DNA of 64,000 nucleotides from NCBI GenBank assembly GCA_029706075.1, contig JAINUG010000136.1, forward strand, positions 464,501-528,500, read 5' to 3'. The position numbers and the translations under genes are program-made. Origin of the DNA: Aldrovandia affinis. Taxonomy: Eukaryota > Chordata > Actinopteri > Notacanthiformes > Halosauridae. The notes beneath the pieces were generated by a model, which had not been told where the DNA came from, did not search any database, and was given only the letters and a program-made list of their open reading frames with translations. Of the stretch, positions 1,873 through 35,976 are shown in pieces. The stretch's first letter is position 1; every line of letters begins with the position of its first letter.

Positions 1873-1899
1873 CTCCACAGCCCTACTGGAAGAGACAAA
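1873..1899 (+). CDS. Micro-exon 1 (27 nt), unit TPQPYWKRQ
   Basis: Acceptor TTTTTCCAG, donor GTAGGC. First member of the array, type A. The leading T comes from the A left by the preceding exon plus CT. Confidence 0.65.
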
Positions 1900-4800
1900 G
1901 TAGGCTTTTCTGATTTTCATTTCCCTCTCGTTTATTGGATCATGGACAATAAATGATAAGATATTAAACCAGTCTTAAAGTCCATAATTATCAAGGATTA
2001 TACACTTTGTTTTCATACAAGATATGCATAAATGCTCACCCTGTTGCATATATCCAGTGTTCTGTGGAAATTCCCTGAATACATAATATACATACTGTAG
2101 GAACAGTAAGTGTGTAACAGATACTCCAGTGTGTTAATGATCTTTACATGTGCAGGGAACGATCTGTAAATATCTCCATTCTGTTTTCCAGCCCAGCGCC
2201 CATATTGGTGGAGACCAAGTACGTTGTTTTCTTTCTCTCTCTCTCTCGCTCTCATTTAATCACTGCAATTATGATATTAACCTTTCAAGGCATCTAGAGA
2301 CCATGAACACATATACTATATTATATGTACATTAAAATGTCTGTGCTTTATAGCTTGTGAGGAATTCTCACCTCAAAGATTTTGGCACAAAAAAAGTGTA
2401 TGACTACAATTATTTTGATAAAAGTTGCCTAACATCAATACTGTTCATACTTAATACATACTGTAGGAACAGTAAGTGTGTAACAGATACTCCAGTGTGT
2501 TAATTATCTCTAAATATGCAGGGAATGATCTGTAAACATCTCCATTCTGTTTTCCAGCCCGGCGTTCATACCGGTGGAGACCAAGTAAGTTTCTCCCTCC
2601 CTCTGTCTCAATTAATCACTGCAATTATGATATTAACCTTTCAAGGCATCTAGAGACCATGAACACATATACTACATTATATGTACATTCAAATGTCTGT
2701 GCTTTATAGCTTGTGAGGAATTCTCACCTCAAAGATTTTTGTACATAATTTTTCTGTATTTGGCACAAGAAAAATCACATTGAATGTATACATACACTGT
2801 ATAGGACTTTAATATTTTAATAAGCTTCATCTCAAGAAACAGAAACTTAATTTATTTATCTAGGTTTCAGCAAGATGGCGCTACAACAGGAGCTCAACAC
2901 GTTTAGATTACTGTATATAATTAACTATCAAGGGCGATATGTGATCTGTGACAACTACAGTAAGCAACTGTGGGAGAGAAACCGGTTTCTGGTTCTTTTT
3001 CAGCACCACAGCCTTACTGGACGATGACAACAAGTAGGTCTTTCTGTGTTTCCCTTATTATGTAACATGCATTAAATATAATTATGCAAACATAGTGACA
3101 GTTCCAGCTGTAAATATCCATTCTGTTTTTCATACCGATGGAGACCAAGTAAGTTTCTCCCTCCCTCTGTCTCAATTAATCACTGCAATTATGATATTAA
3201 ACTTTCAATGCATCTAGAGGAGGATCAAGACGATGTACAGTATACATTTCCTTTTACAAAATATGAGTGCAACCAGATCCCATGTCTTACCTGTTGAACC
3301 CTCTGCTACTTTACCTGAGAGACATATTTATGAGACTCTAGACCAGGGGTGGGCAATCTTACCCTGTGTGGGCCGGTGTGGGGGCAGGCTTTTGTTCCAA
3401 CTGAACAGTGACACACCTGATTCCACTAATAAAAAGCCCTGATTGAAGACTTTGATTTGATTAATCAGCTCAGGTGAGCTACTGCTCGGCTGGAACAAAA
3501 GCCTGCACCCACACCGGCCCACACAGGGTAAGATTGCCCACCCCTGGTCTAGACTCTAAACTCACTCATTATTATTATTAGTTTCTGCAGTAAAGCTTTA
3601 TTAATGGTCTTCTAAATTAGATCAATCTCTTCATATTTTCCAGCTGCAGAGCCCTACTGGAAGAGACAAAGTAGGCTTTTCTCATTTTCATTTCCCTCTC
3701 GTTTATTGGATCACGGACAATATATAAGATATTAAACCAGTCTCAAAGTCCATATTTATCAAGGTTTATACACCTTGTTTTCATACAAAATATCCGAAAT
3801 ATGCATAAATGCTTACAATGTTGCATGCATCCAGTGTGTTGTGGACATTCCCTTGTGTTAGAACAGTGTATGACAGGGGCCTCCCGCGTGGTCTAGCGGT
3901 AAGCGCGGTCGACGCTTGCCACCGCGACCGGGGTTCGATTCCACCGGCTGCACCAGTTTCGGCTCTGGCCGGGAGTGCCACTAGGGGGCGGAAATTGGCT
4001 GTCCAACCCCTGGGGGGAGGGGCAAAAAGCTGAAGGAAAGACTCGCTGCATATATGAGTGGTCGTGCATCGGTGACAGGCTTCGGCCTAGGCGGGCACTG
4101 GCTCGAAGGAGGCAGTGCAGCGCCCGCTACTGGCCAGACTATGGCAGCGAGTTCTCATATGAGGGAGGGATAATTGGCACAAAAAAAGAGAGGGAATTGG
4201 ATACTAAAAAGCAGGGGGAAAAATGGGGAAAACCGGAAAAATTATAAATTAAATAAAATAAAATAAAAACAGTATATGACTACAATTATTTTTATAAAAG
4301 TTGCCCAACAACAATACCGTTCATACTTAATACATACTGTAGGAATAGTAAGTGTGTAACAGATACTCCAGTGTGTTAATTATCTCTAAATATGCAGGGA
4401 ACAATCTGTAAATATCTCCATTCTGTTTTCCAGCCCAGCGCCCATACCGGTGGAGACCAAGTATGTTTCTCCCTCCCTCTGTCTCAATGAATCACTGCAA
4501 TTATGAAATTATTATTATAATTATGAAATTATTAACCTTTCAAGGCATCTAGAGACCATGCACACATATAATATATTATATGTACATTAAACTGTCTGTG
4601 CTTTATAGCTTGTAAGGAATTCTCACCTCAGAAAGATTTTTGTACATCATTTTTCTGTATTTGGCACAAAAAAAAATCACACAGTGTATACATACACTGT
4701 ATAGGACTTTAATATTTTAGTAAGCTTCATCACAATTACTTTCTGCAGTAAAGCTTTATTAATAGTCTTCTAAATTAGATCAATCTCTTCATATTTTCCA

Positions 4801-7800
4801 GCTGCAGAGCCCTACTGGAAGAGACAAAGTAGGCTTTTCTCATTTTCATTTCCCTCTCGTTTATTGGATCACGGACAATATATAAGATATTAAACCAGTC
4901 TCAAAGTCCATATTTATCAAGGTTTATACACCTTGTTTTCATACAAGATATCCGAAATATGCATAAATGCTTACAATGTTGCATGCATCCAGTGTGTTGT
5001 GGACATTCCCTTGTGTTAGAACAGTGTATGACAGGGGCCTCCCGCGTGGTCTAGCGGTAAGCGCGGTCGACGCTTGCCACCGCGACCGGGGTTCGATTCC
5101 ACCGGCTGCACCAGTTTCGGCTCTGGCCGGGAGTGCCACTAGGGGGCGGAAATTGGCTGTCCGACCCCTGGGGGGAGGGACAAAAAGCATAAGGAAAGAC
5201 TCGCTGCATATATGAGTGGTCGTGCATCGGTGACAGGCTTCGGCCTAGGCGGGCACTGGCTCAAAGGAGGCAGTGCAGCGCCCACTACTGGCTGGACTAC
5301 AGCAGCGAGTTCTCATAGGAGGGAGGGATAATTGGCACAAAAAAAGAGAGGGAATTGGATACTAAAAAGCAGGGGGAAAATGGGGAAAAATGGGGAAAAC
5401 CGGAAAAATCATAAATAAAATAAAATAAAAACAGTGTATGACTACAATTATTTTTATAAAAGTTGCCCAACAACAATACCGTTCATACTTAATACATACT
5501 GTAGGAATAGTAAGTGTGTAACAGATACTCCAGTGTGTTAATTATCTCTACATATGCAGGGAACAATCTGTAAATATCTCCATTCTCTGTTTTCCAGCCC
5601 AGCGCCCATACCGGTGGAGACCAAGTACGTTTCTCCCTCCCTCTGTCTCAATGAATCACTGCAATTATGAAATTATTATTATAATTATGAAATTATTAAC
5701 CTTTCAAGGCATCTAGAGACCATGCACACATATAATATATTATATGTACATTAAACTGTCTGTGCTTTATAGCTTGTAAGGAATTCTCACCTCAGAAAGA
5801 TTTTTGTACATCATTTTTCTGTATTTGGCACAAGAAAAATCACACCGAGTGTATACATACACTGTATAGGACTTTAATATTTTAGTAAGCTTCATCACAA
5901 TTACTTTCTGCAGTAAAGCTTTATTAATGGTCTTCTAAATTAGATCAATCTCTTCATATTTGTACAGCTCCACAGCCCTACTGGGGGAATCAAAGTAGGC
6001 TTTTCTGATTTTCACATACAGTCCAGTGTGTTAATGATCTGTAAATATGCAGGGAATGATCTGTAAATATCTCCATTCTGTTTTCCAGCCCAGCGTTCAT
6101 ACCGGTGGAGACCAAGTAAGTTTCTCCCTCCCTCTGTCTCGATGGATCACTGCAATTATGATATTAACTTTTCAATGCATCTAGAGGAGGATCAAGACGA
6201 TGTACAGTATATATTTCCTTTTACAAAATATGAGTGCAACCAGATCCCGTGTCTTACCCGTTGAACCCCCTGGTACTTTACCTGAGAGACATATTTATGA
6301 GACTCTAGACCAGGGGTGGGCAATCTTACCCTGTGTGGGCCGGTGTGGGGGCAGGCTTTTGTTCCAACTGAACAGTTACACACCTGATTCCACTAATACA
6401 AAGCCCTGATTGAAGACTTTGATTAGCTGATTAGTCAAATCAGGTGAGCTACTGCTCGGCTGGAACAAAAGCCTGCACCCACACCGGCCCACACAGGGTA
6501 AGATTGCCCACCCCTGGTCTAGACTCTAAACTCACTCATTATTATTATTATTATTATTAGTTTCTGCAGTAAAGCTTTATTAATGGTCTTCTAAATTAGA
6601 TCAATCTCTTCATATTTTCCAGCTGCAGAGCCCTACTGGAAGAGACAAAGTAGGCTTTTCTCATTTTCATTTCCCTCTCGTTTATTGGATCACGGACAAT
6701 ATATAAGATATTAAACCAGTCTCAAAGTCCATATTTATCAAGGTTTATACACCTTGTTTTCATACAAGATATCCGAAATATGCATAAATGCTTACAATGT
6801 TGCATGCATCCAGTGTGTTGTGGACATTCCCTTGTGTTAGAACAGTGTATGACAGGGGCCTCCCGCGTGGTCTAGCGGTAAACGCGGTCGACGCTTGCCA
6901 CCGCAACCGGGGTTCGATTCCACTGGTTGCACCAGTTTCGGCTCTGGCCGGGAGTGCCACTAGGGGGCGGAAATTGGCTGTCCGACCCCTGGGGGAAGGG
7001 GCAAAAAGCTGAAGGAAAGACTCGCTGCATATATGAGTGGTCGTGCATCGGTGACAGGCTTCGGCCTAGGCGGGCACTGGCTCGAAGGAGGCAGTGCAGC
7101 GCCCGCTACTGGCCAGACTATGGCAGCGAGTTCTCATACGAGGGAGGGATAATTGGCACAAAAAAAGAGAGGGAATTGGATACTAAACAGCAGGGGGGAA
7201 ATGGGGAAAACCGGAAAAATCATAAATAAAATAAAATAAAATAAAAACAGTGTATGACTACAATTATTTTTATAAAAGTTGCCCAACAACAATACCGTTC
7301 ATACGTAATACATACTGTAGGAATAGTAAGTGTGTAACAGATACTCCAGTGTGTTAATTATCTCTACATATGCAGGGAACAATCTGTAAATATCTCCATT
7401 CTGTTTTCCAGCCCAGCGCCCATACCGGTGGAGACCAAGTATGTTTCTCCCTCCCTCTGTCTCAATGAATCACTGCAATTATGAAATGATTATTATAATT
7501 ATGAAATTATTAACCTTTCAAGGCATCTAGAGACCATGCACACATATAATATATTATATGTACATTAAACTGTCTGTGCTTTATAGCTTGTAAGGAATTC
7601 TCACCTCAGAAAGATTTTTGTACATCATTTTTCTGTATTTGGCACAAAAAAAATCACACAGTGTATACATACACTGTATAGGACTTTAATATTTTAGTAA
7701 GCTTCATCACAATTACTTTCTGCAGTAAAGCTTTATTAATAGTCTTCTAAATTAGATCAATCTCTTCATATTTTCCAGCTGCAGAGCCCTACTGGAAGAG

Positions 7801-10800
7801 ACAAAGTAGGCTTTTCTCATTTTCATTTCCCTCTCGTTTATTGGATCACGGACAATATATAAGATATTAAACCAGTCTCAAAGTCCATATTTATCAAGGT
7901 TTATACACCTTGTTTTCATACAAGATATCCGAAATATGCATAAATGCTTACAATGTTGCATGCATCCAGTGTGTTGTGGACATTCCCTTGTGTTAGAACA
8001 GTGTATGACAGGGGCCTCCCGCGTGGTCTAGCGGTAAGCGCGGTCGACGCTTGCCACCGCGACCGGGGTTCGATTCCACCGGCTGCACCAGTTTCGGCTC
8101 TGGCCGGGAGTGCCACTAGGGGGCGGAAATTGGCTGTCCGACCCCTGGGGGGAGGGGCAAAAAGCTGAAGGAAAGACTCGCTGCATATATGAGTGGTCGT
8201 GCATCGGTGACAGGCTTCGGCCTAGGCGGGCACTGGCTCAAAGGAGGCAGTGCAGCGCCCACTACTGGCTGGACTACGGCAGCGGGTTCTCATATGAGGG
8301 AGGGATAATTGGCACAAAAAAGAGGGAATTGGATACTAAAAAGCAGGGGGGGAAAAAATTGGGAAAACCGGAAAAATAATAAATAAAATAAAATAAAATA
8401 AAAAAGGTGTATGACTACAATTATTTTTATAAAAATTGCCCAACAACAATACCGTTCATACTTAATACATACTGTAGGAATAGTAAGTGTGTAACAGATA
8501 CTCCAGTGTGTTAATTATCTCTACATATGCAGGGAACAATCTGTAAATATCTCCATTCTGTTTTCCAGCCCTGCGCCCATATTGGTCCCGGTGGAGACCA
8601 AGTACGTTTCTCCCTCCCTCTCGGTCTGTCTCGATGGATCACTGCAATTATGATATTAACCTTTCAAGGCATCTAGAGACCATGAACACATATACTATAT
8701 TATGTGTACATTAAATTGTCTGTGCTTTATAACTTGTGAGGAATTCTCACTTCAAAAAGAGAATGCAATTGGAATTACACACAAAATAATTATTGTTAAA
8801 CGTCCAGTTTGCGTATACACTGTACAGGAGTGTCAAATTTTAGGAAGCTTCATTTCAAGAAACTTTATTCATCTCTCCCCGTTTGAGCAAGATGGTGTGA
8901 CAACAGTTTAACATGTTTATATTCCTGTGCTCCAGTTGAGCTGTCCTTATCAAGGTTGCTAAGTTTATCTCTGGTCTTATGACAACTACCATAAGCAGCT
9001 GTAGAAATGAGACCTGTGCTGTTTTTTCAGCTGCGGAGCCTTACTGGATGACACCAAGTATGTTTCTCCGGTTCTCCCTTATTATGCAATGTGATTATAC
9101 CAGTGATGTAAACACAATGTGATTATACCAGCGATGTAAACACAATGTGAGAAGTGATGCAAAGGCTAAGTAGTTTCTTCAATTTTATACACAAGCCCAC
9201 CACAACCTTTGAGACGATCTCTGACAAATGTTTTTGTTAATACGAGCGCTCACATGTTAGACCTGATGAAAACTAGTCTCCACCCTGACGCTCTATCGCT
9301 AGGTCTATCTATGCATCTACGGCGTGCGTAATTGTGCAAGTGCCTGACCTGCGCGTTTACTCTTTTCCAGCTGCGCAGCCTTACTGGAACAGGCCAAGTA
9401 GGTTGCTCCGGTTCTCCATTTTAGGAGTCACATTATGATTAGGATCGTGCTCGGCATTTAAGCTTTAACCCTCCGAATCCCGTTTCATCGCCCCGTGTAC
9501 GCCAGGTGTTCCAAAGCCCCGCATTCAGGTGTACGTGGAGGCCGACAGAAGCGAGAGCTTTCAGGTGACGTGCCTCTACCAGCTGGAGCTCGACGGGAGC
9601 CACTTTCAGCTGGACGTGGTGGGCCGTGACACCTACACCGCGAGGAACCCGGGGTGCACGAGCGGCGCGGTGTGTCGCTTCAACGTCACCGCGTCGCCGC
9701 CCGTCTCCTTCACGTGCGTGCACAGAGTGCGCGCCTCTGGGATGGCCGTGGCCCTGACCAGTGACACGTTCACCGCCAGCAGCCAGGGTAAAACAGTGTG
9801 CCTTCATTTCAGTTACTTTGGTCGGCTCGGCAGTGTAGTATAACGGTTAGGTAACTGGGCAACGGTTGCAGATTCGATAGGTGGGGCATTGCCGTGTTAT
9901 TCTTGAACAAGGTACTTAAACCTGTGTTACTTCAGTGAATATCCAGGTGTATAAATGGACTGTATGTAAAAGAAACTTAAAGTCACTTTGGATAACAGCA
10001 TCTGCTAAATGGCTATGATCTCTAACGTATTGTCATTTCAAATTATTGCAACGAAGTTCATACGTATACTGAGATATTGAATTCTAGATCATATTTAGGT
10101 TGATCTCCATGAGCCTGCAGTGTTTTTCAGTGATATTTATTTCCTTCTAGATTCGAAAAAAGATTTAGGGGAAAATAAAGCCTCTTGTTTGATCGCGTAA
10201 CGCCCAGCTATGGCGCAACAAAGTAAATATTAGGAAATGATGTCAATCAAAGCCGCAGTTCGCCGAATATAGTCCTGCTCGTTAATATCAAAGGTTAACA
10301 ACAAGCTCTCTGCATTAGCCTCCCACATCTGGAGTTACCTCACGGCGAAGATACACTGTAATGATGACTATCTTGGTTAGATAAGCAATGGGTAAATAAA
10401 ATGGTACCTTTGGCAGTCACGGGCCAGCTCCGCTTCGGCGTCCTTGTGGAGGGTCAGCCCAAACTCAGGCGGCGTTGTTCCAGTTTTGTTATTTTAAAAA
10501 GTGCCATGGTGATTTCAGTCTTCCCCTCTCTCATAGGAAAACCCGAATTAAATGGCTGCTTGTCGGTTTATGTGTTTGTGTATCCGTGGATCAGCTTTCC
10601 GCCGCGCGGTTTTCATGTGCTTCAAAGTTTGTCTCTCGCCGTGTTCATATCCTGCTTGACTCTCGCGCCACGAGAACCGTGCCCCTCCTGCGCACAGAGC
10701 GTCACCCCTAGTTACTGGTTCCGGGATTAGGCTCCGTAGTGCAAATAAACCTTAAACTAGCATTTCACACACACATTACACAACCCAACCAATACAGCCA

Positions 10801-10847
10801 TAAGGGAATACTCATTTGGATATGTGGGTTCTCATAATAATGAATCC

Positions 10848-10881
<34 letters not shown>

Positions 10882-11459
10882 CCTACACTAGATGTCACCA
10901 TTCACGTGCACACTGGCCCAGGAAATGGACTGTAACCATAGTTACATTATCCTAATTGACAAAACACAATGTAAAAAAAAAAAGGTCAGGCAATGCAAAT
11001 AGCTGATGAACAAACAGTGTAATTCGTCTCCTCTGAAACGTATAAACAATAGGCAATATGACCGTGTATGATGATCAATATTCAGCATTTTAACTATGAC
11101 TCAGATTCAACCTAAAAGGAATGCACTTTGCTCTTTAAGTCACTAATCAAAACGAGTGCTGATTTTTATATTTCTTCCAAAAAAGTAGCTAAACAGTCAC
11201 TATAATTTAGGAGGAAATGTGTACAAATGATAAAAATGTTACACAGGGACATAAGGGTGAAGGGCTCTGCCTCTATAGGTTGACTTGTTTGATCCCCAGT
11301 CTGGGCCTGTTCTGATGCAGACTCCTGTTCTCTCTGTTTCAGACAAGTGCAGTTCCACCGTGTCTCCGATGTACATAGCCTTCTTTGTCATCATCATGCT
11401 AGGCCTTGCCACAATGACCGTAGTGGTTGTGGTGACGATACGGAAGACGAGGCAGAAAG
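1873..11459 (+). CDS. Unrecognised single-pass membrane protein: PYW micro-exon array, Ig-like domain, TM (partial gene)
   Basis: I do not recognise this gene. Sixteen micro-exons (27 nt, with single 30- and 33-nt variants) each sit between a pyrimidine-rich AG acceptor and a GT donor. All begin with two bases of a codon and end with one (phase 1). Each encodes a 9-11 residue unit of consensus T-x-x-P-Y-W/R-x-x-x. The array is followed by an Ig-like exon (9506-9787) and a TM exon (11343-11459), both also phase 1-1, so the frame stays open from 1873 to 11459. The implied protein is extracellular PYW repeats, one Ig-like domain, a helix and a short basic tail. The 5' end and signal peptide are missing and the tail exon is only a candidate. 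The consistent phase across 18 exons is the main evidence that this is a gene; expression is not shown. Confidence 0.7.
2192..2218 (+). CDS. Micro-exon 2 (27 nt), unit TQRPYWWRP
   Basis: Acceptor GTTTTCCAG, donor GTACGT. Type B unit; it keeps the full PYW core, unlike most later type B copies, which read PYRW. Confidence 0.65.
2558..2584 (+). CDS. Micro-exon 3 (27 nt), unit TRRSYRWRP
   Basis: Acceptor GTTTTCCAG, donor GTAAGT. Type B copy in which Pro has become Ser and the core Trp has become Arg. Confidence 0.6.
3004..3033 (+). CDS. Micro-exon 4 (30 nt), unit TPQPYWTMTT
   Basis: Acceptor CTTTTTCAG, donor GTAGGT. Ten-residue variant one codon longer than the norm, still phase 1-1. Confidence 0.6.
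3131..3148 (+). pseudogene. Degenerate type B micro-exon
   Basis: The last 18 nt of a type B exon and a good donor (GTAAGT) remain. About 12 nt covering the acceptor AG and the exon start are deleted relative to other copies, so it should not be spliced in. Confidence 0.55.
3344..3546. mobile_element. hAT-type MITE, copy 1
   Basis: Long terminal inverted repeats beginning CAGGGGTGGGCAATCTTACC. The flanks read CTCTAGAC and GTCTAGAC, a one-mismatch 8-bp target duplication as expected for hAT. No coding capacity. A second copy lies at the equivalent place in the next duplicated block (6311-6516). Confidence 0.75.
3644..3670 (+). CDS. Micro-exon 5 (27 nt), unit TAEPYWKRQ
   Basis: Acceptor TTTTCCAG, donor GTAGGC. 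Type A, identical in sequence to the exons at 4802, 6623 and 7779. Confidence 0.65.
3876..4267 (+). mobile_element. tRNA-derived SINE (family 1), copy 1
   Basis: tRNA-like head with box A (TGGTCTAGCGGTAAGCG) and box B (GGTTCGATTCC), a body containing GCCACTAGGGGGCGG, and an A-rich AAATAA tail. Flanked by a direct repeat, AACAGTGTATGAC on the left with one change on the right. The same site is occupied in all four duplicated units. Confidence 0.85.
4434..4460 (+). CDS. Micro-exon 6 (27 nt), unit TQRPYRWRP
   Basis: Acceptor GTTTTCCAG, donor GTATGT. Type B with the core Trp codon TGG changed to CGG. Confidence 0.62.
4802..4828 (+). CDS. Micro-exon 7 (27 nt), unit TAEPYWKRQ
   Basis: Acceptor TTTTCCAG, donor GTAGGC. 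Type A. Confidence 0.65.
5034..5429 (+). mobile_element. tRNA-derived SINE (family 1), copy 2
   Basis: Same element at the same unit position as copy 1, with flanking AACAGTGTATGAC repeats. It was copied by the block duplication, not inserted independently. Confidence 0.85.
5598..5624 (+). CDS. Micro-exon 8 (27 nt), unit TQRPYRWRP
   Basis: Acceptor GTTTTCCAG, donor GTACGT. Type B. Confidence 0.62.
5968..5994 (+). CDS. Micro-exon 9 (27 nt), unit TPQPYWGNQ
   Basis: Acceptor TTTGTACAG (weaker than its relatives), donor GTAGGC. Type A variant with Gly-Asn replacing Lys-Arg. Confidence 0.6.
6089..6115 (+). CDS. Micro-exon 10 (27 nt), unit TQRSYRWRP
   Basis: Acceptor GTTTTCCAG, donor GTAAGT. Only 94 nt separate it from micro-exon 9, the shortest intron in the array and close to the lower limit for efficient splicing; a deletion probably joined two units here. 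Confidence 0.58.
6311..6516. mobile_element. hAT-type MITE, copy 2
   Basis: Same element and same flanks as 3344-3546. It marks the start of the second large duplicated block. Confidence 0.75.
6623..6649 (+). CDS. Micro-exon 11 (27 nt), unit TAEPYWKRQ
   Basis: Acceptor TTTTCCAG, donor GTAGGC. Type A. Confidence 0.65.
6855..7245 (+). mobile_element. tRNA-derived SINE (family 1), copy 3
   Basis: Same element and flanks as copies 1, 2 and 4, with scattered substitutions (for example AACGCGG in box A and CCGCAACC before box B). Confidence 0.85.
7412..7438 (+). CDS. Micro-exon 12 (27 nt), unit TQRPYRWRP
   Basis: Acceptor GTTTTCCAG, donor GTATGT. Type B. Confidence 0.62.
7779..7805 (+). CDS. Micro-exon 13 (27 nt), unit TAEPYWKRQ
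   Basis: Acceptor TTTTCCAG, donor GTAGGC. Type A. Confidence 0.65.
8011..8404 (+). mobile_element. tRNA-derived SINE (family 1), copy 4
   Basis: Last of the four co-duplicated SINE copies; the right flanking repeat is slightly eroded (GGTGTATGAC). Confidence 0.85.
8569..8601 (+). CDS. Micro-exon 14 (33 nt), unit TLRPYWSRWRP
   Basis: Acceptor GTTTTCCAG, donor GTACGT. Type B copy with six extra bases that restore an intact PYW core while keeping the RWRP end and the frame. Confidence 0.6.
9031..9057 (+). CDS. Micro-exon 15 (27 nt), unit TAEPYWMTP
   Basis: Acceptor TTTTTTCAG, donor GTATGT. It lies outside the recently amplified block and its introns are diverged, so it is likely an older copy. 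Confidence 0.65.
9071..9150. repeat. Short tandem duplication (two copies, about 27 bp)
   Basis: The segment ATGTGATTATACCAGTGATG is repeated once with a single change, in the intron between micro-exons 15 and 16. Confidence 0.6.
9371..9397 (+). CDS. Micro-exon 16 (27 nt), unit TAQPYWNRP
   Basis: Acceptor CTTTTCCAG, donor GTAGGT. Last unit; its closing A joins GT of the next exon to give Ser at the start of the Ig-like domain. Confidence 0.66.
9506..9787 (+). CDS. Ig-like domain exon
   Basis: A 282-nt exon, phase 1-1, acceptor ACGCCAG and donor GTAAAA. It opens VPKPRIQVYVEA and contains FQVTC (B-strand-like Cys) and VSFTCVHRV (F-strand-like Cys), with two further cysteines in NPGC and AVC that could form a second disulfide. 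An N-glycosylation site (NVT) is present. The one-exon, one-domain layout with phase 1 ends is typical of Ig-superfamily surface proteins. GC content is clearly higher than in the flanking array. There is no canonical YxC motif, so the exact Ig class is uncertain. Confidence 0.75.
9831..10012 (+). mobile_element. tRNA-derived SINE (family 2)
   Basis: Head GCAGTGTAGTATAACGGTTA, a degenerate box B (GCAGATTCGATAG), and a 3' domain ending in a diverged copy of the common teleost tail (AGTCACTTTGGATAACAGCA, CTGCTAAATG). Lies in the intron before the TM exon. Confidence 0.75.
10013..11342. other. Intron between Ig-like and TM exons
   Basis: Holds the SINE above at its start and an (AAT)n microsatellite at about 10845-10881. 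Open frames near 10401-10730 have no recognisable features and I do not call them. Confidence 0.5.
11343..11459 (+). CDS. Transmembrane exon of the PYW/Ig gene
   Basis: A 117-nt exon, phase 1-1, acceptor TCTGTTTCAG and donor GTAAGT. It encodes DKCSSTVSP, then a helix of about 24 residues (MYIAFFVIIMLGLATMTVV onward), then the basic stop-transfer run RKTRQK. This fixes the orientation: micro-exons and Ig domain outside, short tail inside. Confidence 0.75.
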
Positions 11460-13249
11460 GTAAGTGCAATTTTTAATGACAGAACAACAGACCACAATAT
11501 TGTGTCCGACCTCTCTCCGAATGAAAATCTGTAGAGTATGAAGTTTATTGATGTAATTAAGAACAGGACTGACTGTTGAGACTTATCTGTTTTTAATTCG
11601 TCTATATATAGCGTAGTTGCACTTAGTTTACATTTAAATGCCTTCCTCAGCATGCAGCGATATAAATACAGAAGGTTTTTACTATCAAAAGGAGAACAAA
11701 CCTTTTACAAGAAAATTCAAACAATTATCACAATAATAAAACATTCAAATAAATCATTTACAATAACATTTACAATGAGTAAATGAAGACCTATTCAATA
11801 ATACAATATTTCAACAATATTTCCTTTTTATAATAAACCCTTGTGAATAGCTCACAAGTGAGAAGAATACAATAAGAACTCTCATAATTAATAACAGAAT
11901 TAATGATATTAAATGAAATAGATAATGAATGAATGGAAAAAGATGGATCAATAAGTAAACAATAACTCACCAATTTGTTTCAAATAAAGTATATAGGCCC
12001 TTAAGTATCTTATTCATCAAGTACTGATAGGAGGTGAACCTATCACACCAATTAACAGTATCACACCAATATATATATATATATAGTGTATAGATCCTTA
12101 CATAGAGACTGCCAGTTCTGTGTTACATGCATTAGATGCACCTACAGAATGATATATATGCTTCTCCACCATGCGTACTTAGACAGGATCTTGAATAGTG
12201 TAAATCTACGCCGACAGTAATTATGCTCTCTGTTATTTCATTGGTGGACACCACGATCCGCGCCACCCAACAGTTCTTATGATTCTTGAAATGTCACTGC
12301 ACGTGTTAGAGGTTCCGCTTTTTCTCTCGCCAGGCTTGTTCGGCGATTCCAAATACAATGGCTACAAAGAAAAGGCTTTGATCTGACCTTTGAGCCGGAG
12401 GAATCCATGGCTGGCTGCCGCCGAATCATCAGCCAGACGCCCACGCCTTGCTGTGATCGAAAATGAGTTTGAATCATGTTGCTGTGCTTGTGCTGCTCTT
12501 TTGAATCGCCTGTAATCATCAGTTGCATTTCCATCGGTGTAAGTCCATGTGTTTTTGTTCCCACTGTCGTGTGACGTGTCCAATGGAAGCACGCACTGTG
12601 CACATTAAACTCAGTGCTCGAACCTACGTTTGGGGAAAATGCGAAATAACTAGTCCAAATGTACCTCAAGGCAAATGTAACCGTTGTAATGGTCACAAAG
12701 CGTACACTGGCCGCACCTCAGATGCATTTAAGAGCAATCTTTCTTTGGTGTATATGGCCAGGTTGTCACTGACGCAGCATGTGGGGGCTTGCTTAAATCG
12801 TGCGACAATGCGCGTGCAATTTGTTTTTGCTCCAATGGAAATTCACTTCAGCTTTTAAAATTAATCAAATCTAAGTAGCTATTTCCAAGGCTTTCGTCTG
12901 TGTTACTGTGAAGCTTGGTAAGATCTTAGGTGAAGGCCTGACGTTTTGATTGTAATTGTGAAGAGTATATCATTCTAAAATAAGTACATCAAAGTTAGAG
13001 TTGTACGCTTTGGTCTGTAGTACGCGGCAAACCTTTTATATGTTTATGAAAATGAAAATGTTCACAAAAACATACATTATATCATTTGAAAAATCAAAAT
13101 CAAAATCAATAAAACATTGAAAGTGATACCATGAGTTACGTGTGTTAAAACTACTTTAATTTGACTCTCTGCAGTCAAAATCCTTCTGCTTTTCTTCATT
13201 AATTGCTTTCAAGGGTGAAGATAATGGCAACCATCTTTCTACTTTCTAG
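11460..13249. other. Intron or 3' region after the TM exon
   Basis: AT-rich, with a short (AT)n at about 12070-12086. Open frames at 12277-12858 overlap on both strands without domain signals. No exon called. Confidence 0.4.
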
Positions 13250-13272
13250 ATCCGTTAAGGCTAAATATATAA
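13250..13272 (+). CDS. Candidate terminal exon (cytoplasmic tail)
   Basis: A good acceptor (TTTCTACTTTCTAG) is followed, in the phase left by the TM exon, by D-P-L-R-L-N-I and a stop. This would give a very short tail. Only the acceptor and phase support it; many short exons could fit by chance. Confidence 0.25.
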
Positions 13273-14058
13273 AAAATAGTTTGCTCCAGTTTGAAAAATA
13301 AAAAATAGATGAAAAGTTAGTGACATCGTCACTAGAGAAGACACAGGCACATGGCTACTTAGAGTAGAAGAGGAGATGTGAATGTTCGATAAGCCTACAC
13401 AACACATACAATGTGTTAACTGAAAATAATGAGGTATGGCTTAAGTCGTGATTGTATATTCAAATAAATACTTCACTACCACCTCCAGCATGTATTTTCA
13501 GACCATTTGAGGGTCACATTTTTTTTGTACCGTATGATATACACATTGTTTTGCTGTAACTCAATACAGTATTATACAAATTAAAAAAGCATAATCACTG
13601 CCAGGGACTTACATTAGGCCATTTGGGAAGAGAAAACAAAATCTGATCTGTTAAAAAAAAAACGAAGAAAAAAAAAAAAAATAGAATAATCAAAGGCTAG
13701 AACTCAAATATTTCTAGCATGCAATTCAAATAGCATTAGCAAAAAACAACACCAGAAAAATACACTCCTTTTCCCATTTCCATCATTCACATGCTCTGTC
13801 ATCTTAACACCACACAGCAAGCTCCTCCTCTCTCCTCTTCCCTCCCTCCCCCAACTCACCTCGGTGTTATCAGTCTTCCTTAAAACCAGCCCCCCCCACC
13901 CACCTCCCCATGTCCCTCCCCTCTCCCTGTGTCCCCTCCCTCTCCACCTCGTCCGGACCGTCGCTCCCTCCCGCTCCCCTTATATCTGTCGCCATCTCGG
14001 TCTCCCTCAGTGGCACTGCTTCCCTCAGAACTGGGGCAGCCTCATTCTCTCCTCCAGG
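13273..14058. promoter_or_regulatory. Intergenic region and putative pcsk1n promoter
   Basis: A-rich sequence to about 13800, then a C/T-rich promoter-like stretch. A TATA-like CCTTATATCT lies near 13978, about 75 nt before the proSAAS ATG, consistent with a short 5' UTR. Transcription start not demonstrated. Confidence 0.35.
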
Positions 14059-14130
14059 ATGACGGGCCCTCTGACCAGCGCAGTCTTTCTGCTGCTCTCC
14101 ATCGCTCTCCTCCGGCCGCTGGAAGCCAAG
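14059..14130 (+). CDS. pcsk1n: pcsk1n coding exon 1 (signal peptide)
   Basis: 24 codons: the ATG starts MTGPLTSAV, followed by a leucine-rich hydrophobic core and LEAK. Donor AAG/GTGAGT, phase 0. This ATG is chosen because the signal peptide starts directly at it. Confidence 0.85.
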
Positions 14131-14829
14131 GTGAGTGGGAGCCGCAACGCAGGGGCGCCTCGGCACACCTTATCCGGCATGCAGACGTATTCAAATCGGG
14201 CTCGTTTAAAGCCAGCCTGCTGTCCAGAGGCAACCCAGGGGGCTGAGCTGTATACACGGCAGTGCAGAGCGCACGGCAGACTTGCTATTAGGTGTGTGTT
14301 CGCTGCCTGGCCGATATTTAACCCACGTGCGACGGATCCTGACAGTATTGATGCATACAAGTGTTATGTGGGATGAGAATGATAGCGAACGAGATGAATT
14401 TGCACACCCGTAAGTGTCAGGAAAGGAAAAATGGTAATACCGATGTAAAGGGTCACTTTTTGTTCAAAGCAGGCTTGATTGATGTTGGGGCGCAGTTGCA
14501 CATGTATATTGCGCAGAGGTGCTGTGAGACGGATTGGAAAGGGAAGGGAGTAGCTGAAATTAATTACCTGTGTGCGCGTGTGTGTCTGTGTGTGCGCAGG
14601 TGCGCGTGTGTGCGCGCGTGTGTGTGCGTTCAAGATGTGGGGCAGTGACAGATGGCGAGAGGGAGAGGGGATACATCAAAAACACAGCTTACACCGTCTT
14701 TTCCTAACAGGGAAGAGAGTGAGGCTCTTAAAAATTAAAAAGCGGATTGAACACCACAGCGGCTAGGCATTGTCACACGCATAGGTGGATCTGGCACTGT
14801 TCCCTGATTTCTTGGCAAAATCACAGTGA

Positions 14830-14871
<42 letters not shown>

Positions 14872-17800
14872 TGGGGGTGTATCCATCAGCATTGCCTGGC
14901 AACGACAGAGAAGGACAGAAACCTGGTTGGGGTGGAGTTTAAGTCAAATGAAATGAACAATGGAATAAAAGAACAGAACATTCGACTTGTGTAAAATGTG
15001 TAAAACCTGTATTGCTCTACCACATGTGACTGATGAAGAAAAACACAGCATAAATTTAGTGATAACGGGAAAAGGTTTAGAACTGGGGGGAAAACATTAG
15101 ATTAGATTAGATTAGACACAGACCTGCATTTCCTGAAAAGCTTTCAACAGTCAGACACTCTTAGCAGCTAAACATACATTTTGAGTAGGGGGTGTATTGG
15201 TTGTCAACGGATCTGTGACAGGCGTGTGACCAGACGGAAAGAGAGTGTGTAACATGAACAGTGCGTCACTGCCCGAGCGTGAGCAAAGAGGACAGAAAAC
15301 GCAATCACTTCCCAAATGTGCAGGGAGAAACTGCCATGTTATTTGTTTCACTCTGTTTTCTCAGTGAGTAAAATTGAAAATGCACAGTACTAACTCACGG
15401 ATGGAAACGGGATGAAATCAGATCTTGTTGAACATTAAGAGTCTGACTCTTTAAGGTGCCAACTTAGTGTGAAAGTGTATCTGTCCAGTGTAACATAGTA
15501 AAGGGTAACTTCACCATTCATTTCATATACAACGTTGTAATATTAGCGGGCATCCACAATGCAAATCTCTTCATTCTTATGTACTACTATCTACTTCAGG
15601 CTAACTAACTCTCATATAAACCCAGGATGCCTGTATTACACCTCTCCTTTCAGTGGATTGCTTGTATCAAATTCAATTTTTAGTAATTTATTTGTCAGGG
15701 GCAATGCAAGTAAACATCGTGTAAAAACATAAAACAGATGCACTGCATACAGGGTTTCTAGCCAGAGCTCATTTGTGACCCCTGTCCCCGGTTAGGCTTT
15801 TGAAGTTTAAAAGATGATCAACACAGATTTGCAAATCACATTGTTGCTACTCGTTTGTCCTTGTGTGTAATTCTGTTTTGCATCCATTTCATCAATGCAC
15901 TGGCCTTTTTTTATTTTAATTTAATCCTGATCAATATATCTTGATCTCCTGATTAACAGGATATATGGAGGATGGGGACAGATAAGGAGGGACTTAATGG
16001 TCAACTCCAAAATTATTCACACCATTGATAAAGACTTGATAAGCCTATAAATGTAGTGCCTATTCTGCACTCATGCATTAGAGATGGGAAGTGACACATG
16101 CTGATGTCAGAGCATGAAAACATGTGTAATAAAATGCACAACTTTTCCATTGTGAAATAGTTTTTCAAAATGCCAACCCACTACACTTTGAGGCAAGCAA
16201 CAACATATTACGATTTTCGGTGATTTTATGCTTGAATATTGGCACGATCACCAGGGATGACCGGGAGCCTGTTGTTACACAATCTTGTCTGTAGAAAATC
16301 TTCTGCAAGAGCAGGGGCGTGGCTAGGGCCTGGATATTGGGCTATAGCCCCGCACCATTTTTCATTAGCTCCGGACCATTTCTAGCAAATTCATTCATTT
16401 TTTTGAGTATATTATTGACTGTGTTTGATGTTGAGCATTACTGATACAACCATGAACACTGCACTACTTTTCACTTTATTTCAACTTTGTTGCAAGTGCT
16501 TAATGTCAATATAAATATAAAAACAATAATTATACATTAGCATTGCATTGCTTACATTCAATGTACGTTTACTACATAGGAAGTAAAATGATCGATTATT
16601 ATCTAGACTAGGTCATGGGCTCAGCCCCGGATATTGTCTCGTCTATGTCTAGTCACGCGCCTGTTCAAGAGAAGTGTGAAGGGTAACTGAGTGAGAATAA
16701 ATGACTTTATCAGGACCGTGCTTACTGCGCGCTCTCATTTTGAGTTTATCTGGATCATGACTGCAATGATATGGCCGGCACTGTGTTCCTCCAGATTCAG
16801 GGCAGAGGAGGTTTAGATCTTGGAATTCCTGGATATATAGCCATCAGTGGCAAGGCGGAGAGATAGCAAGGTTCTGTTTGTTTGAAAGTGGCTTAAACAG
16901 GGCTTAGTGAGCTGTCTGAGCGCTCGGTGTAATGTGCCGTATGACTCACTGTTTCCAGGGACTCTGCAACCAACTCTGTCTCCAGGACATATTCTCTGCT
17001 GCCGAAAGAACATGATTCTTGCCCTCTGTAAATTTGTAAGTGATTAAATCCATTTGAGCTATGGAACTCCCAGGAGGAGGGACTTGAACTCCCTTTACAA
17101 GTGAGAATAAAGCGGGGTGTGTTTTTGTAAATGTGTAAGTTCACTTCATGTCCATGATGGGGGAGTGGGGGGGGGAGATATTGTTTAATACATTCTCATA
17201 ACCCGTGATATTTATTTTATGATCCGCTTGCCTGCTAGCCCATTAGCTGTGGCAGTAGTTGCAGTGAGCTGAGCTTGTTTGCTTTTAAATATAGGTGTGT
17301 GATACAGTTTTACACCTGAATATCACATACTCCTGACTAGCATTTTTAAATGTGGTTGCAGCTAAGTGAAATGGGACTGATGGCTATATGCATTTGTGTT
17401 GCAATGTCAGTTAAGCTTAAATGCATACCATTCATTTAAATGTGCTTTCTAAATTTAAGTACTACTGTATTTTTTACAAATAAATTTGAACTACTGTCTA
17501 GAAAATTCAACTAAAAAGGACGATTACTTATTGCTGGCTCGATTTATCATATGTTTACAGATTTCCTTAGACTATCCTGTCATTCTGTGCGATGATGGTA
17601 AGAGTTCAGTTATTCAGGACCATGGAGAGTTACTGCCGTTCACCTCCAAGTGGGATACTGATGTGGCACTTAATCTCAAAAAGAACCTTTATGAGAGAAA
17701 TTGGTCTCATTTCTCCAATGACTGGAGCACAGATAGCTTAGCACAGTAGGTGGATGCTAGTAAATATGGGTAGCAAGTGGGAGGGAATTTCTTGATACTG

Positions 17801-17887
17801 TCCCATTGTGACAGAAAGCCTGAGGTCAGGCAGAATGCATTGTACCTACACATGTGCACATGTGCACACGTGCACACGTGCACACGT

Positions 17888-17957
<70 letters not shown>

Positions 17958-17999
17958 ACACACACACACATTCACAGATTCACACAAACACCTACACAT

Positions 18000-18038
<39 letters not shown>

Positions 18039-18126
18039 TACATACATACACACATTCACAGATTCACACACACACCTACAAATGTGCACACACACACACA
18101 TACATACATACACACATTCACAGATT

Positions 18127-18180
<54 letters not shown>

Positions 18181-21100
18181 AATCATGTTTTTAACTGATT
18201 TGCATTTGTTTGTTTTTATGTCTGGAGCAGGGCTCCTCTGAAATAGAGACCTTGATCTCAGTAGGACCTTAGAGGTTAAACCTAGTAGAGGTTAAATAAA
18301 ATAAATAAGAATAAACAACAGACATATCACTCAGAATTCATCAGTCAGGAAATGTGACAAAAACTATGGAGTGAAAAAGCAAGAAACCCATTACACCCGA
18401 CCCAGTCCTATACTGGCCAGGTTTACGACTAGCCAACTTAAGGTGTTAGTCGGTTGTCTGTGATTTCTGAATGCGGTGCAAGACACGGGCTTGGCACTAC
18501 AACATTCAAAGAGATCGATAGCTGAGGCAGCACAATCTAATTGACTAGTTAAATATCCCTATGCCATTGTAGTAATTTCATTTAAATTGAATTTGTATAT
18601 ACTCTGCGCATTCGTTGTTACAGGCTTTTCAGTCATTATTACTTTTTCATGTTTTTTGCGATATATTTGAATTTCAAGGACAGTATACAAAAAACGGAAC
18701 CGATTAGATTGGACAATTGATTCCCTGATTTGTTTGTTTATCTGTTGGCTTCTTTCGCATTTGGCTAAATTGTAGTCTTAATTTCCAGGAATTGTCAGTG
18801 CTAACAGTTCATTAACAGTTTGGAGGTTGGAGTGTGGATGGGCAGAGCGTAGGGAAGAGGGGGAGAAATGGGTGCAGTGTAGGGAAGAGGAGGCGAGATG
18901 ATTCCGCATCGCTCGCTAACCAGCAGCCACAGGTGGTTTGGCGTGGACAGCCGTCACCGCCTACGCACGCGCTCATTTGCAACGCGCAGACAGATGCGCG
19001 AGGCGCACACGTCAGAGTGCGTCGGCTCTCTGACTCACGCAGAACGCGAAGGATTCCCACTGCTGCCCCTGGCACGCGCAGGCAACGCGTCACTCCCTGC
19101 TCCATTATTAAACACCCGTCTCCCGGCTAGTACGTGTCCCTCACCCACACAAATCGACCTCGCACCGCAGATGAACCCCGGATAAGCCTTAAGAAAAGCA
19201 GGTTAGGTGAAAGCAGCACTTCTTTCATACTTCTGGCTCATTAAAGCTGCGGTGCGGCGAGCAGAGTGCAAGTCATGTGTGAAGATGTCTCACGCAAAGG
19301 TAGATGTTTGGAACTTATTTAAAAGGAGGAAAAACAAACGGCACGGCTGAAGCAGGAAATCAAATAATCAAATGTGCACAACGACGTGAACTGAGCCGCA
19401 AGTCAAACATCTACTTTATTTACAGCCCTCTAAATGGGGAGTTATGGCTACAATAAAACGGATTAAAAAAAGAGCGAGATGGAGATGCAAATCTGAGATA
19501 GGTGAAAAGGTAATAAATATAAAACTAGCAGTAAATCAATGTGTGGCCTCAGCTCAGTAAAGAACGGAGTCGAGCTGGGTCAAATGAATAATGGGCTTTT
19601 TGGCAGCGTGTCATTATTTTGTTTATTCAGACTGTGCTCCATGTTGGATCTGGACTATGTTTGTTCATTAAATACAGCAGCGGGCTGTATCCCTCATCCA
19701 CCATGCGGGAAACTTAATTACGATGAAAAAAGGTAATTCTGGGATTAGATTGAAAGATTGGCATCCAGATATCCGTTTGTGTCCTGGGCCACTCCCGTTC
19801 ATGCCTCCACACTCCCTCTCGCCCACCCCTCTCACTGCTCAATGCTGCTCCCTTTTTCTCTTATCAGGGGTGTGCACCTTGCTTTTTAAAATAATGTTTT
19901 AAATTGGTATAATCTTCCAGTCATCACTCTGCTCTTCTCAGATTTTCCCCCTTTTCATTTTCCCCCTTTTCATTCTCCCCCCTGCCCCTGCATCCCATCA
20001 GTCATCATCTCGTCAGACCCTTGTGTCCTCAAATGTCTCTTTCACCTTTCGCCTTCAATGCATCCCTCGTTCATTCGACAAAAGCCAGCTGGGCGCCAAG
20101 TTCCGAGGCATAAATATTCACAGGCCATTGAGATCGTGCCCTACCATCGCAGTCATACATATCCAAACAGTCCTGTTCCCTTTGAGTCATCAATCCAACG
20201 AGACAGCAGGTGTACACCCCCTTTTGTGGCACCCTGGAGGTGATTTTAGCTCGCAGCGCTCAGATCTTTCATCTTAAATATAAATCTCTGCTTCTGTAGA
20301 GACTGCAGTGCATTTCGCTTGCTTCATGGGGTGTCCATTTTTCAATTTTGCCCCACTGATGGTAACTGTCCCGAGTCTTTCAGTAAGGGTTCATTCTAAA
20401 AGCTCACAGATTGCTGCTCAGTAGAGGTTGTGTTATACTGAGAAGGGTGTTTGATGGGTAGGTGGATGACTCAGTGTGTGTGTATGGGGGGGGCGTGGAT
20501 TTGTGCCTAAATATTGTGGTGGTGTGGCGGTGAGGAGTGTAATTGTGAGTGTGTGTGCGTGTGTGTGCGTGTGTGTATGTGTGGTGTATGTGTGTGTGTG
20601 TGAGACTTCCTTTCAAGTTTATTTGGTGCATGTGTATAGGGATATGATTAGTAACCGGATGAGCAGCAGGGCTGGAGGTGGGTGAGAGCAACTGCACAGT
20701 GTTCTGTGGTGTAAATCTCTCACCTCTGACTCACATCCCACTAAAGAGAGAACATGAGGGGAACAGAGGAGAGGGGAGGACATTTGGGGAAAGAGAGGAG
20801 GGGAGAGGAATGAAGATGAGGACTCATCTATTATGAATACTGCCTTTCATGAATTAAAAAGAGGTCCTACGACAAATTACCCTCCTGACTCAAGGCACCT
20901 TTCTCTCACACCCAATCTATCGAGCCTTCAAATTATAACCTTGTCTGAATATATTTCTATTTTCCCAGACAACACGGTCATTTTGCACTAAGAAAATATT
21001 GTCTTTCAACTTCACAAGCAAAAAAGTAATGTGAGGAAAATAAAGTCCTGGGTGTAATCTGAATGAAATGTTGGATCTTATTACCGTGATGTATTCGGGC

Positions 21101-33808: not shown

Positions 33809-35148
33809 CTGAGAGAGGGAGGGAGGGAGGGAGGGAAAGAGAGAGAGAGAGAGAGAAGAGAGAGAAAGGGGGAAAGGGAGAGGGAGAGAGAGAGAGAGAG
33901 AGAGGGGAAGGGAAAAAGAGAGAGATAGAGAGAGAGCGATAGGGAGGGAAAGAGAGAGAGATAGAGAGGGAAAGGGTGAGAGATGGGATGGGGTGAGCAG
34001 AGAATTTAGGTATATCCCAACATATGGGGTAATCTCTGGACTCAAGGCATATTCTAATGCTCATATTTTAAATCCAAACACAATCCTTTTATATCTGCAT
34101 ATCTATTTACAACTCCTCCCACCTAGCACACCTGTATGCTGACACACACCTGTTGTCTGCGCTGACATTTAAATACCAATTAGGTTTAAATACCAAATTC
34201 AGACACTCAAACCTATTTGCTACTCATGTTAAACAAGCACCACCCACAGGCTTTACACCCTGTCTCTGCATTGTTACCCCTATCCACAGCTTTTAGAATG
34301 CTCACTCACCAACAGATCCACATCACTAACATCCTGACAGACAAACACCTCACTACTTCATTCCCTTACGGGATGATCCAATTACTGCCTCACCACCCTA
34401 CCCTCTCACCCCTCACTACCCACCCCCTCACCCCCTCACCATCCACCCCAACACCCCTCACTACCCACCCCACCCCCTATCCCTCCCTACTGAACCCTTC
34501 ACCAACCCACCCCCTCACCACCCATCCCAACACCCCCTTGCTACCCAACCCACCCCCTATCCCCCACTACTGAACCCTTCACCAACCCCATCGCCCCACC
34601 CCAACACCCCCACCCCCTCACTACCCAACGCATCACCAACCCACTCCCTCCGACCCTCACCCCTTAACCCCCTCACTACCCAACCCCACATGAACCCACC
34701 CCCACCCCCCCCTTCCACACAGCCCCTCACCAGCCGTGAGCTGCAGCCAGGCGCAGATCTTGTAGACGGTGGCGGCGTTGCAGAAGCGGAAGAGGCAGAG
34801 GCAGCCCACACTGGCCCACACCATCGCCAGGGAGACGCACACGAGCACGGCGGGCGACTGGAAGGCGGGCAGCGGGGTGAGCGTGCGCAGGGACCCCCGG
34901 CACTCCGGCACGGGCCACTCAGACTCCAGGCACACCTGGAACAGGCCCAGCGTGCCGGACTGGGGGGCCGGCGTCCCGCCCTGGTAGTGCAGCTCGCGGG
35001 TGCCCACCCAGGACGGCTGGATGAGGATCACCACCTCGATGACGGAGAAGCAGAGCGTGCAGACGGCCCACAGGGCCCCCACCGCCCGCGCGCTGCGCAC
35101 AAACTCCGTCTGGTACAGGCGAGCCACCTCCACCGTGTGGGGCTGCAT
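33581..35148 (-). CDS. LHFPL3/4/5-type tetraspan membrane protein (gene span, 3' end incomplete)
   Basis: Two coding exons (34731-35148 and 33581-33808) join in phase 1 to give 215 residues. Family hallmarks, in order: VARLYQTEFVRSARAVGALW, TM1 (FSVIEVVILI), IQPSWVG, GLFQVC, CRGS, TM2, FCNAATVYKICAWLQL leading into TM3, LFPDSWE, NCSVHWAFVLAILGVLDAAI (TM4) and AFVLGNRQDALL. These match the LHFPL3/4/5 branch: LHFPL5 belongs to hair-cell mechanotransduction and LHFPL4 to GABA-A receptor synapses. The sequence is too diverged to choose among them by eye. The second exon ends at a donor, so a short final exon is expected but was not found. It lies between pcsk1n and hdac6. Confidence 0.85.
33809..34730 (-). 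other. LHFPL-type gene intron, largely low-complexity
   Basis: In transcript sense the intron begins with G-rich tracts (plus strand CACCCC and CCCACC repeats, about 34370-34720) and ends with a TC tract of about 170 nt (plus strand GA, 33812-33980). About 300 nt between them is ordinary sequence. Confidence 0.8.
34731..35148 (-). CDS. LHFPL-type gene, coding exon 1
   Basis: The ATG at 35148 (reading MQPHTVEVARLYQTEF) is chosen because LHFPL3/4/5 proteins begin about this distance before the conserved RSARAVGALW segment. Upstream in-frame sequence is proline-rich and unlike the family. 139 codons plus one base; donor GCTG/GTGAGG. Confidence 0.85.
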
Positions 35149-35976
35149 GGCAACCCGGCCCTCCAGCGGGGCGGCGGGTGGGGGGGGGCGTCTGAGAGAC
35201 GGGACGACAGCGCAGGACAAGAGAGGGACGGACACTGAGTCACCGCAGGTAGGAGCAAAGCGTAGTAAAACACTGTGGTGGCAGCACAGAGGAGAGGACC
35301 GCAGCAGGGAATTCAGCAGGCCCACTGTTATGATCTGCTTGACGTAAGGAGCGCGTTTAATAGACATGTTACTACTCATTCATTACGACCTGTTGAGGCA
35401 CATAATAAGCAGATAGTAAGCAGGTAGTACATTCTGAGAGAATTTTTAAAAACAATGAAGTTAAACACTATTTCATTTCAACATTCGATGTTTATTTCCT
35501 GTTTATTAGCTGCTCATCATCAGCTGTTTGCTTGCTTGCTTAATTAACAGGTACCAATGTATCTATCAGCTGCTTTAACAGTATAAACAGGCCCTGGGAG
35601 TGAGTGACTGAGAACAGATAACAGAACAGACCCGAAAGACAGAACTGAGGAACAAAGATGCATAAGCATATCTCACTTAATCAGCAGATCACATCATGGA
35701 TTTAGCATAACATGACAGCATGAACACCAGCGACGATGATGCTCGCACACAGCAACAGACTACTGCCGACGGATCGGGAGAGGAGGGCAGGCGCTCAATC
35801 TGGTCTGGTCAGGAAGCACACATAAAAGACCAATGCACAGCATGCTCTGGAACCCGCGCGGAACATGAATGAGTTGAGAAGGATGGGTGACGGAACCGTG
35901 GAGAGAATCACCTCTGCTGGTCCGCGCCTCTGTCCTGCGCCTCTGTCCTGCCTGCTGGAGTCCGGGAGCAGATTCG

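Follow-up and report, generated by a model that had tools for sequence, protein, structure and literature searches.

We analysed a 64,000-nucleotide (nt) stretch of the genome of the halosaurid fish Aldrovandia affinis (assembly GCA_029706075.1, contig JAINUG010000136.1, positions 464,501 to 528,500, forward strand), hereafter the window, together with the 40 kb upstream of it (104 kb in all); the genome searched comprised 1.22 Gb in 2576 contigs. Positions are given in window coordinates (contig position = 464500 + window coordinate), so that values below 1 lie upstream of the window. The locus harbours a gene with a long row of tiny exons, the so-called cassettes, and its assignment as a multi-micro-exon gene for a predicted type I membrane protein is well supported by the sequence.

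Exon structure of the locus

The 26 exons of the model join to 1110 nt encoding 369 amino acids (aa), open from Met to stop, with every junction in phase 1. From ATG to stop the gene extends over 17,099 bp and encodes, in this order, a signal peptide, a Tyr/Asp-rich tip, 21 cassettes, one immunoglobulin (Ig)-like exon, a transmembrane segment and a short tail. It is flanked upstream by a PET/LIM-domain gene on the same strand, which we take to be Prickle-type, and on the other side by proSAAS (PF07259). The exons outside the cassette array are:

-4712..-4664, plus strand: leader exon, reading MQCLSFILMFSLWSAT, upstream of the window
-4266..-4237, plus strand: Tyr/Asp-rich micro-exon, 30 nt, SGWYDYDYSA, spotted by eye, upstream of the window
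9506..9787, plus strand: Ig-like exon, 282 nt, phase 1-1, read as Ig from Cys spacing only, without a Pfam match
11343..11459, plus strand: transmembrane exon, 117 nt, phase 1-1, coding for a clear transmembrane segment
12334..12386, plus strand: candidate terminal exon, GLFGDSKYNGYKEKALI then stop, the best terminal exon found (acceptor score 5.7)

A leader scan of the 104 kb returned three plus-strand candidates and one on the minus strand, and the exon at -4712..-4664 was the sole one within -15300..1873. A 42-nt exon at -4458 was rejected, as it would create a stop after the leader, and none of the tail exons with an immunoreceptor tyrosine-based inhibitory motif (ITIM) sought in 11460-14100 was convincing.

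The first-pass annotation, made from the window alone, had listed 16 cassettes at 1873-9397. All of them are present, each with an AG acceptor, a GT donor, a length that is a multiple of three, no stop and phase 1-1 (the scan accepted any length of 24-42 nt); 14 measure 27 nt, one 30 nt (3004-3033) and one 33 nt (8569-8601). That annotation also had the cassettes leading into Ig-like and transmembrane exons: their in-frame joining to 9506-9787 and 11343-11459 holds, but the Ig identity found no support in Pfam. Its list lacked a dead copy near 3129-3155, as well as exons that lie beyond the window, namely five more cassettes, the leader exon and the Tyr/Asp micro-exon. Sorted by their flanks into A, B and C types, the copies are, from 5' to 3':

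-3247..-3218, plus strand: upstream cassette, A type by short likeness only, TTEPNWAAAS
-2703..-2674, plus strand: upstream cassette, B type by short likeness only, SQRPHPWEGA
-2275..-2252, plus strand: upstream cassette, C type, TPQPDWMT
-1738..-1712, plus strand: upstream cassette, A type, TAQPFWGRQ
-1615..-1589, plus strand: upstream cassette, B type, TQRSYRWRP
1873..1899, plus strand: cassette, A type, TPQPYWKRQ
2192..2218, plus strand: cassette, B type, TQRPYWWRP
2558..2584, plus strand: cassette, B type, TRRSYRWRP
3004..3033, plus strand: cassette, C type, 30 nt, TPQPYWTMTT
3129..3155 (approximate limits), plus strand: dead B-type copy, acceptor and first codons deleted in the alignment
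3644..3670, plus strand: cassette, A type, TAEPYWKRQ
4434..4460, plus strand: cassette, B type, TQRPYRWRP
4802..4828, plus strand: cassette, A type, TAEPYWKRQ
5598..5624, plus strand: cassette, B type, TQRPYRWRP
5968..5994, plus strand: cassette, A type, TPQPYWGNQ
6089..6115, plus strand: cassette, B type, TQRSYRWRP
6623..6649, plus strand: cassette, A type, TAEPYWKRQ
7412..7438, plus strand: cassette, B type, TQRPYRWRP
7779..7805, plus strand: cassette, A type, TAEPYWKRQ
8569..8601, plus strand: cassette, B type, 33 nt, in frame and 6 nt longer than its B relatives, TLRPYWSRWRP
9031..9057, plus strand: cassette, C type, TAEPYWMTP
9371..9397, plus strand: cassette, C-like, TAQPYWNRP

The gene thus contains, as predicted from sequence, a long succession of in-phase exons that measure roughly 30 nt at most, namely the 21 cassettes (one of them 33 nt) and the 30-nt Tyr/Asp exon. 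Cassettes encode 8-11 residues each, mostly of the form T-x-x-P-Y-W or T-x-x-P-Y-R-W; the first residue is Thr in 20 of the 21 and Ser in one, and Pro stands at +3 from the start in 18/21. In eight cassettes of unlike flank type, position 1 is always Thr or Ser, position 4 is Pro and a Trp stands at 6 or 7, whereas the first and fourth codons differ in their third bases. As the motif itself had served to find three of these eight, the conservation is partly circular. Length differences among related cassettes are in frame as well: 6 nt at 8569, 3 nt between 3004 and 9031, and 3 nt between 9031 and -2275. Longer B exons starting from an AG further upstream run into an in-frame stop.

Scans against chance and growth of the array

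It is very improbable, in our estimate, that there is no gene here and that splice-like motifs arose by chance in tandemly repeated DNA. Much of the array is indeed repeated DNA with SINE-like (short interspersed nuclear element) and palindromic inserts; against this stand scans controlled by the minus strand, the 1110-nt open reading with its leader and transmembrane segment, and a frame and motif common to cassettes with unlike flanks. The motif-free scan sought stop-free phase-1-1 exons of 21-45 nt on both strands of the 104 kb, and returned ten plus-strand matches, nine of which are exons of the gene model (the Tyr/Asp exon by construction, since its scores set the site thresholds), and none on the minus strand. 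Laxer sites gave 25 matches in the gene region, which were not individually inspected, six elsewhere on the plus strand and one on the minus strand. With the motif T..P.{1,2}W added, which misses those three cassettes (-1615, 2558 and 6089) that have Ser in place of Pro, 18 plus-strand matches were obtained, all of them cassettes of the array, and one on the minus strand.

In the whole genome, the combination of acceptor, motif and donor matched 42 times, 12 of these within 12.7 kb at the locus, and the reversed-pattern control gave three matches; the remaining 30 rows are scattered, none clustered, and four are double listings of one place. Without the splice sites, the pattern occurs at no fewer than 62+50 places (reversed control, at least 9+22), of which only 30 became loci. 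Among the matches listed, which took in 21 of the 30 loci and left out nine on the minus strand, the nine at the locus have AG directly before the motif and the 12 others do not. The Ig-like exon occupies one place in the genome by DNA and one by protein, in a protein search that scores only the best candidates (next match E 0.92, with an internal stop); a second gene copy or a retrocopy containing this exon was not found by the genome DNA and protein searches.

Nested duplications of an A-B(-C) unit enlarged the array. Read from 5' to 3', with b for the dead copy near 3129-3155, it runs A B C, A B, (hAT remnant), A B B C b, A B, A B, A B, A B, A B C, C-like. Its largest repeat is a pair of segmental duplication blocks:

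3108..5800, plus strand: segmental duplication block, copy 1, 95.1% identical to 6061-8760
6061..8760, plus strand: segmental duplication block, copy 2, 95.1% identical to 3108-5800

Inside each block lies an inner duplication of about 1.1-1.2 kb (3577-4848 versus 4735-6014, 96.3%; 6556-7614 versus 7712-8760, 93.0%), which carried a SINE-like insert along. Many of the 16 cassettes in the window are therefore recent copies and not independent witnesses.

By reading, the SINE-like insert is present in four copies in the A-B introns (about 3880-4240, 5040-5400, 6850-7210 and 8010-8370); ARAGORN found no tRNA in any of the four, and a related stretch lies at 21407-21507. The duplicated introns also hold a near-palindromic element (3333-3557 and 6300-6527) whose inverted copies are 81-83% alike; hairpins of this kind might affect exon skipping. 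A hAT transposase remnant (1-1200, Dimer_Tnp_hAT in 455-1186) sits in the intron that separates the upstream cassettes from those of the window, and a further likely hAT piece lies just upstream of the window.

Among the neighbours, the PET and LIM domain gene was located in the region of about -26100 to -15300 on the plus strand. ProSAAS is placed at 14059-26305 (Pfam matches on 23712-24269 and 25895-26305, and by reading a signal-peptide-like start near 14059), and an LHFPL-type gene (34660-35379) and an HDAC gene (44073-44960) lie on the minus strand; we take the set of proSAAS, LHFPL-type and HDAC genes to resemble human Xp11.23. Four UnaL2 long interspersed nuclear element (LINE) 3' elements (RF00436), of a family named from eel, were located at 46654-46707, 58256-58309, 60971-61024 and 46382-46436, and may be a clue to the fish's lineage. 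The only tRNA reported by ARAGORN in the window, tRNA-Ala at 58163-58238, is followed 17 bases later by a UnaL2 3' element, and the layout at 58163-58309 is, judged by its letters, that of a tRNA-derived SINE and not of a working tRNA gene.

Splice sites, selection and proposed use of the cassettes

The reading we favour, with some reserve, is that of a single-locus gene for a type I membrane protein with a membrane-distal arm of 21 in-phase micro-exon cassettes, whose inclusion and copy number would tune arm length. The cassettes would be spliced into the transcript, and their inclusion probably varies, so that splicing would set arm length; variable inclusion is suggested by the uniform 1-1 phase of the junctions and by the weakness of most donors. 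An earlier claim that cassettes can be skipped without a change of frame agrees with the junctions, as any subset stays in frame. Over generations, copy number and arm length may also change by unequal crossing-over. On paper, 21 skippable cassettes allow about two million combinations; as these specify no more than 15 different peptides, the variation would be greater in length than in sequence. A stronger version, which we regard as rather doubtful, is a combinatorial length-coder, in which cells or individuals would pick subsets of the 21 extracellular exons under a sulfotyrosine/O-glycan tip and so set the reach and multivalency of that tip.

Several observations weigh against the tunable arm. 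By splice scores computed from crude base frequencies, the transmembrane exon has a donor of 8.7, whereas the donors of the window cassettes lie at 1.5-3.1 in 14 cases out of 16 and those of two upstream cassettes at only -0.3 and -1.2; the acceptor of the Ig-like exon is weak (1.3). The frame of the five upstream cassettes is no independent test, because they were sought with lengths divisible by three, and Ser replaces Pro in three of the 21 cassettes (-1615, 2558 and 6089). Neither the Ig-like exon with the transmembrane segment nor the whole 369-aa product matched any Pfam family at E<=10. Across eight homologous block pairs, exons diverge at 30/375 sites (8.0%) and introns at 251/4667 (5.4%), exons being faster at a two-sided p=0.045, a rough value, as are all p-values from these partly overlapping pairs; splice flanks (7/126) and pyrimidine tracts (13/278) do not differ more slowly than introns. 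An early count suggesting slower evolution of splice flanks was discarded, as the flanks compared were partly non-homologous and the effect vanishes on homologous blocks. Purifying selection on the recent copies thus leaves no trace in these data, which would fit drift or diversification.

Low donors occur elsewhere in the gene (Ig-like exon 1.6, leader 3.2, Tyr/Asp exon 2.6); the cassettes are therefore not set apart by weak donors. Exons usually end in G, but 20 of the 21 cassettes end in A, the base that the Thr codon at a junction demands; peptide and splice site are here visibly in conflict.

These data bear directly on a rival explanation, in which the locus is a true gene that uses just a handful of old cassettes, perhaps the leader-proximal and Ig-proximal ones, and the recent copies are passengers of duplication, skipped and drifting neutrally. 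We consider this possible but less likely. It would account for an exon divergence between copies at or above that of introns, for the one copy already dead, for the weak donors, and for one peptide being common to four A cassettes and another to three B cassettes, since these are recent copies. What speaks against it is that 15 of the 16 flank-defined copies are intact, with acceptor, donor and frame preserved and no stop (A, 7/7; B, 8/9, the ninth being the dead relic). Under a rough neutral estimate, A should have suffered 1.94 disabling events (P of none 0.14, not significant by itself) and B, counted with the relic, 6.99 (P of no more than one 0.0074); the figure for B is inflated, because the relic is badly aligned in its tree. 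Without the relic (tree length 0.391) about 3.5 events are expected in B and 5.5 in A and B together, with P of at most one about 0.03 by hand arithmetic and an assumed indel rate. The evidence from this estimate that cassettes have been kept is only moderate. We read the locus as a real coding array whose recent copies appear little constrained in sequence.

Predicted protein and comparison with known systems

The first-pass annotation had proposed extracellular 'stalks', a term we doubt: the cassettes sit between the leader and the Ig-like exon and would therefore form a membrane-distal arm, not a stalk below the Ig. This arm of 193 aa, which would make up most of the extracellular part, contains 37 Lys+Arg, 8 Asp+Glu, 41 Trp+Tyr+Phe, 33 Pro and 32 Ser+Thr, with an isoelectric point (pI) of 11.4 and a charge of about +28 at pH 7. 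Attachment of O-GalNAc is favoured at Thr followed by Pro at +3, and the Ser/Thr at the cassette starts, mostly with such a Pro, may be O-glycosylated and the tip tyrosines sulfated. Held away from the membrane, a basic, aromatic and glycosylated arm of this kind would serve in adhesion or recognition. The tail of about 25 residues is, by reading, without an ITIM.

The same composition, with seven R-x-x-R sites and six dibasic pairs, would suit a cationic Trp/Arg/Pro-rich precursor, in which cleavage of the arm at basic sites would free host-defence or heparin-binding peptides from an Ig-transmembrane anchor. We hold this to be improbable: the arm contains no furin-type R-x-[KR]-R site, a single basic residue occurs among the first three cassettes from the 5' end, and Pro at +3 is kept in 18/21 while basic residues vary.

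The Cys pair and the phase-1 exon are only suggestive of Ig identity. Searches of the PDB by sequence gave several matches that we took as chance: PilE for the Ig-like exon (E 0.64), Siglec-8 (E 0.049, three sequences) and PRDM9 (E 0.1) for the repeats, and VirB9 for the tip (E 1.9; 0.75 and 1.6). A short join found no match in the PDB and one sub-threshold Pfam match on its transmembrane segment (MaAIMP_sms, E 0.1), and tblastn of the Ig-like exon against phages found none.

The nearest known layout is that of the chicken BG genes. The first-pass annotation knew of no family so arranged; rows of tiny exons are nevertheless known from these Ig-type, butyrophilin-family genes, and what stands of the claim is that the BG row is cytoplasmic. 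According to PMC4046983, BG genes of one haplotype have 13-36 tiny exons each, of 21 or sometimes 24 nt, in a cytoplasmic row thought to be helical; expansion and contraction of the tiny exons are mentioned for BG1, and alternative splicing is mentioned as well. Common to both is an Ig-type membrane protein with a long row of constant-frame tiny exons. The BG row follows the transmembrane exon and encodes a cytoplasmic heptad tail in a multigene family, whereas here the row stands between leader and Ig-like exon, would be extracellular and belongs to one gene; the fish cassettes are mostly 27 nt (range 24-33, one of the 21 being 24 nt) and rich in Pro, aromatic and basic residues. The BG domain is a V-type Ig domain of the butyrophilin kind. 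For the fish exon the Ig reading stays tentative: it has no Pfam family, and its AlphaFold2 model from the single sequence is of low confidence, with a predicted local distance difference test (pLDDT) score of 38.6.

PSGL-1 (SELPLG), to our knowledge without an Ig domain, offers a second comparison. According to PMC2174952, its acidic N-terminal tip carries potentially sulfated tyrosines and is followed by an O-glycosylated Thr, by repeats of about ten residues in variable number, and by a transmembrane segment and a tail. The fish protein likewise has an acidic Tyr tip after the leader (SGWYDYDYSA, sulfation predicted), then Thr, repeats, transmembrane segment and tail, and one tip Tyr stands six residues before Thr-Glu-Pro, a spacing like that of Tyr-51 and Thr-57 in PSGL-1 (PMC2174952). 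The PSGL-1 motif T[D/E]PP[D/E] occurs in 12 of 14 mammals; the fish TTEPNW retains only T-E-P, and two of the 14 mammals also have no such motif. The PSGL-1 repeats are mucin-like; those of the fish, judged by composition only, are not, being basic and for the most part having a single Thr. Each fish repeat forms an exon by itself. The resemblance is likely convergence.

In PTPRD, a LAR-type receptor phosphatase, the extracellular micro-exons meA and meB (9 and 4 residues) are alternatively spliced and alter partner binding (PMC12598525); these are two mini-exon sites inside or between Ig domains and, unlike the fish row, no tandem array. A query for teleost micro-exon reports and one for catfish CD45 reports found none in the open-licence PMC literature for the words used, and among the 10 of 15 open-licence PMC papers listed by a broader query, most dealt with Dscam and LAR-RPTP. 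In-phase exon rows, some alternatively spliced, set the length of repetitive segments in CD45 (its variable exons), the titin PEVK region, elastin and collagen; these resemble the fish gene in layout only, being other proteins of other sequence. Dscam-type clusters choose exactly one variant; the fish cassette lengths, divisible by three, do not require exclusion. The fish gene is not filed as a member of the BG, PSGL-1 or PTPRD systems.

Its structure, judged from the genome, is real and unusual. If spliced as read, the array would be the equivalent, extracellular and membrane-distal, of the exon rows in chicken BG, contained in one gene and with its duplication history readable in the introns. 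The gene would then serve as a testbed for spliceosome recognition of rows of weak-donor micro-exons, and for exon-number variation between individuals and regulated ectodomain length.

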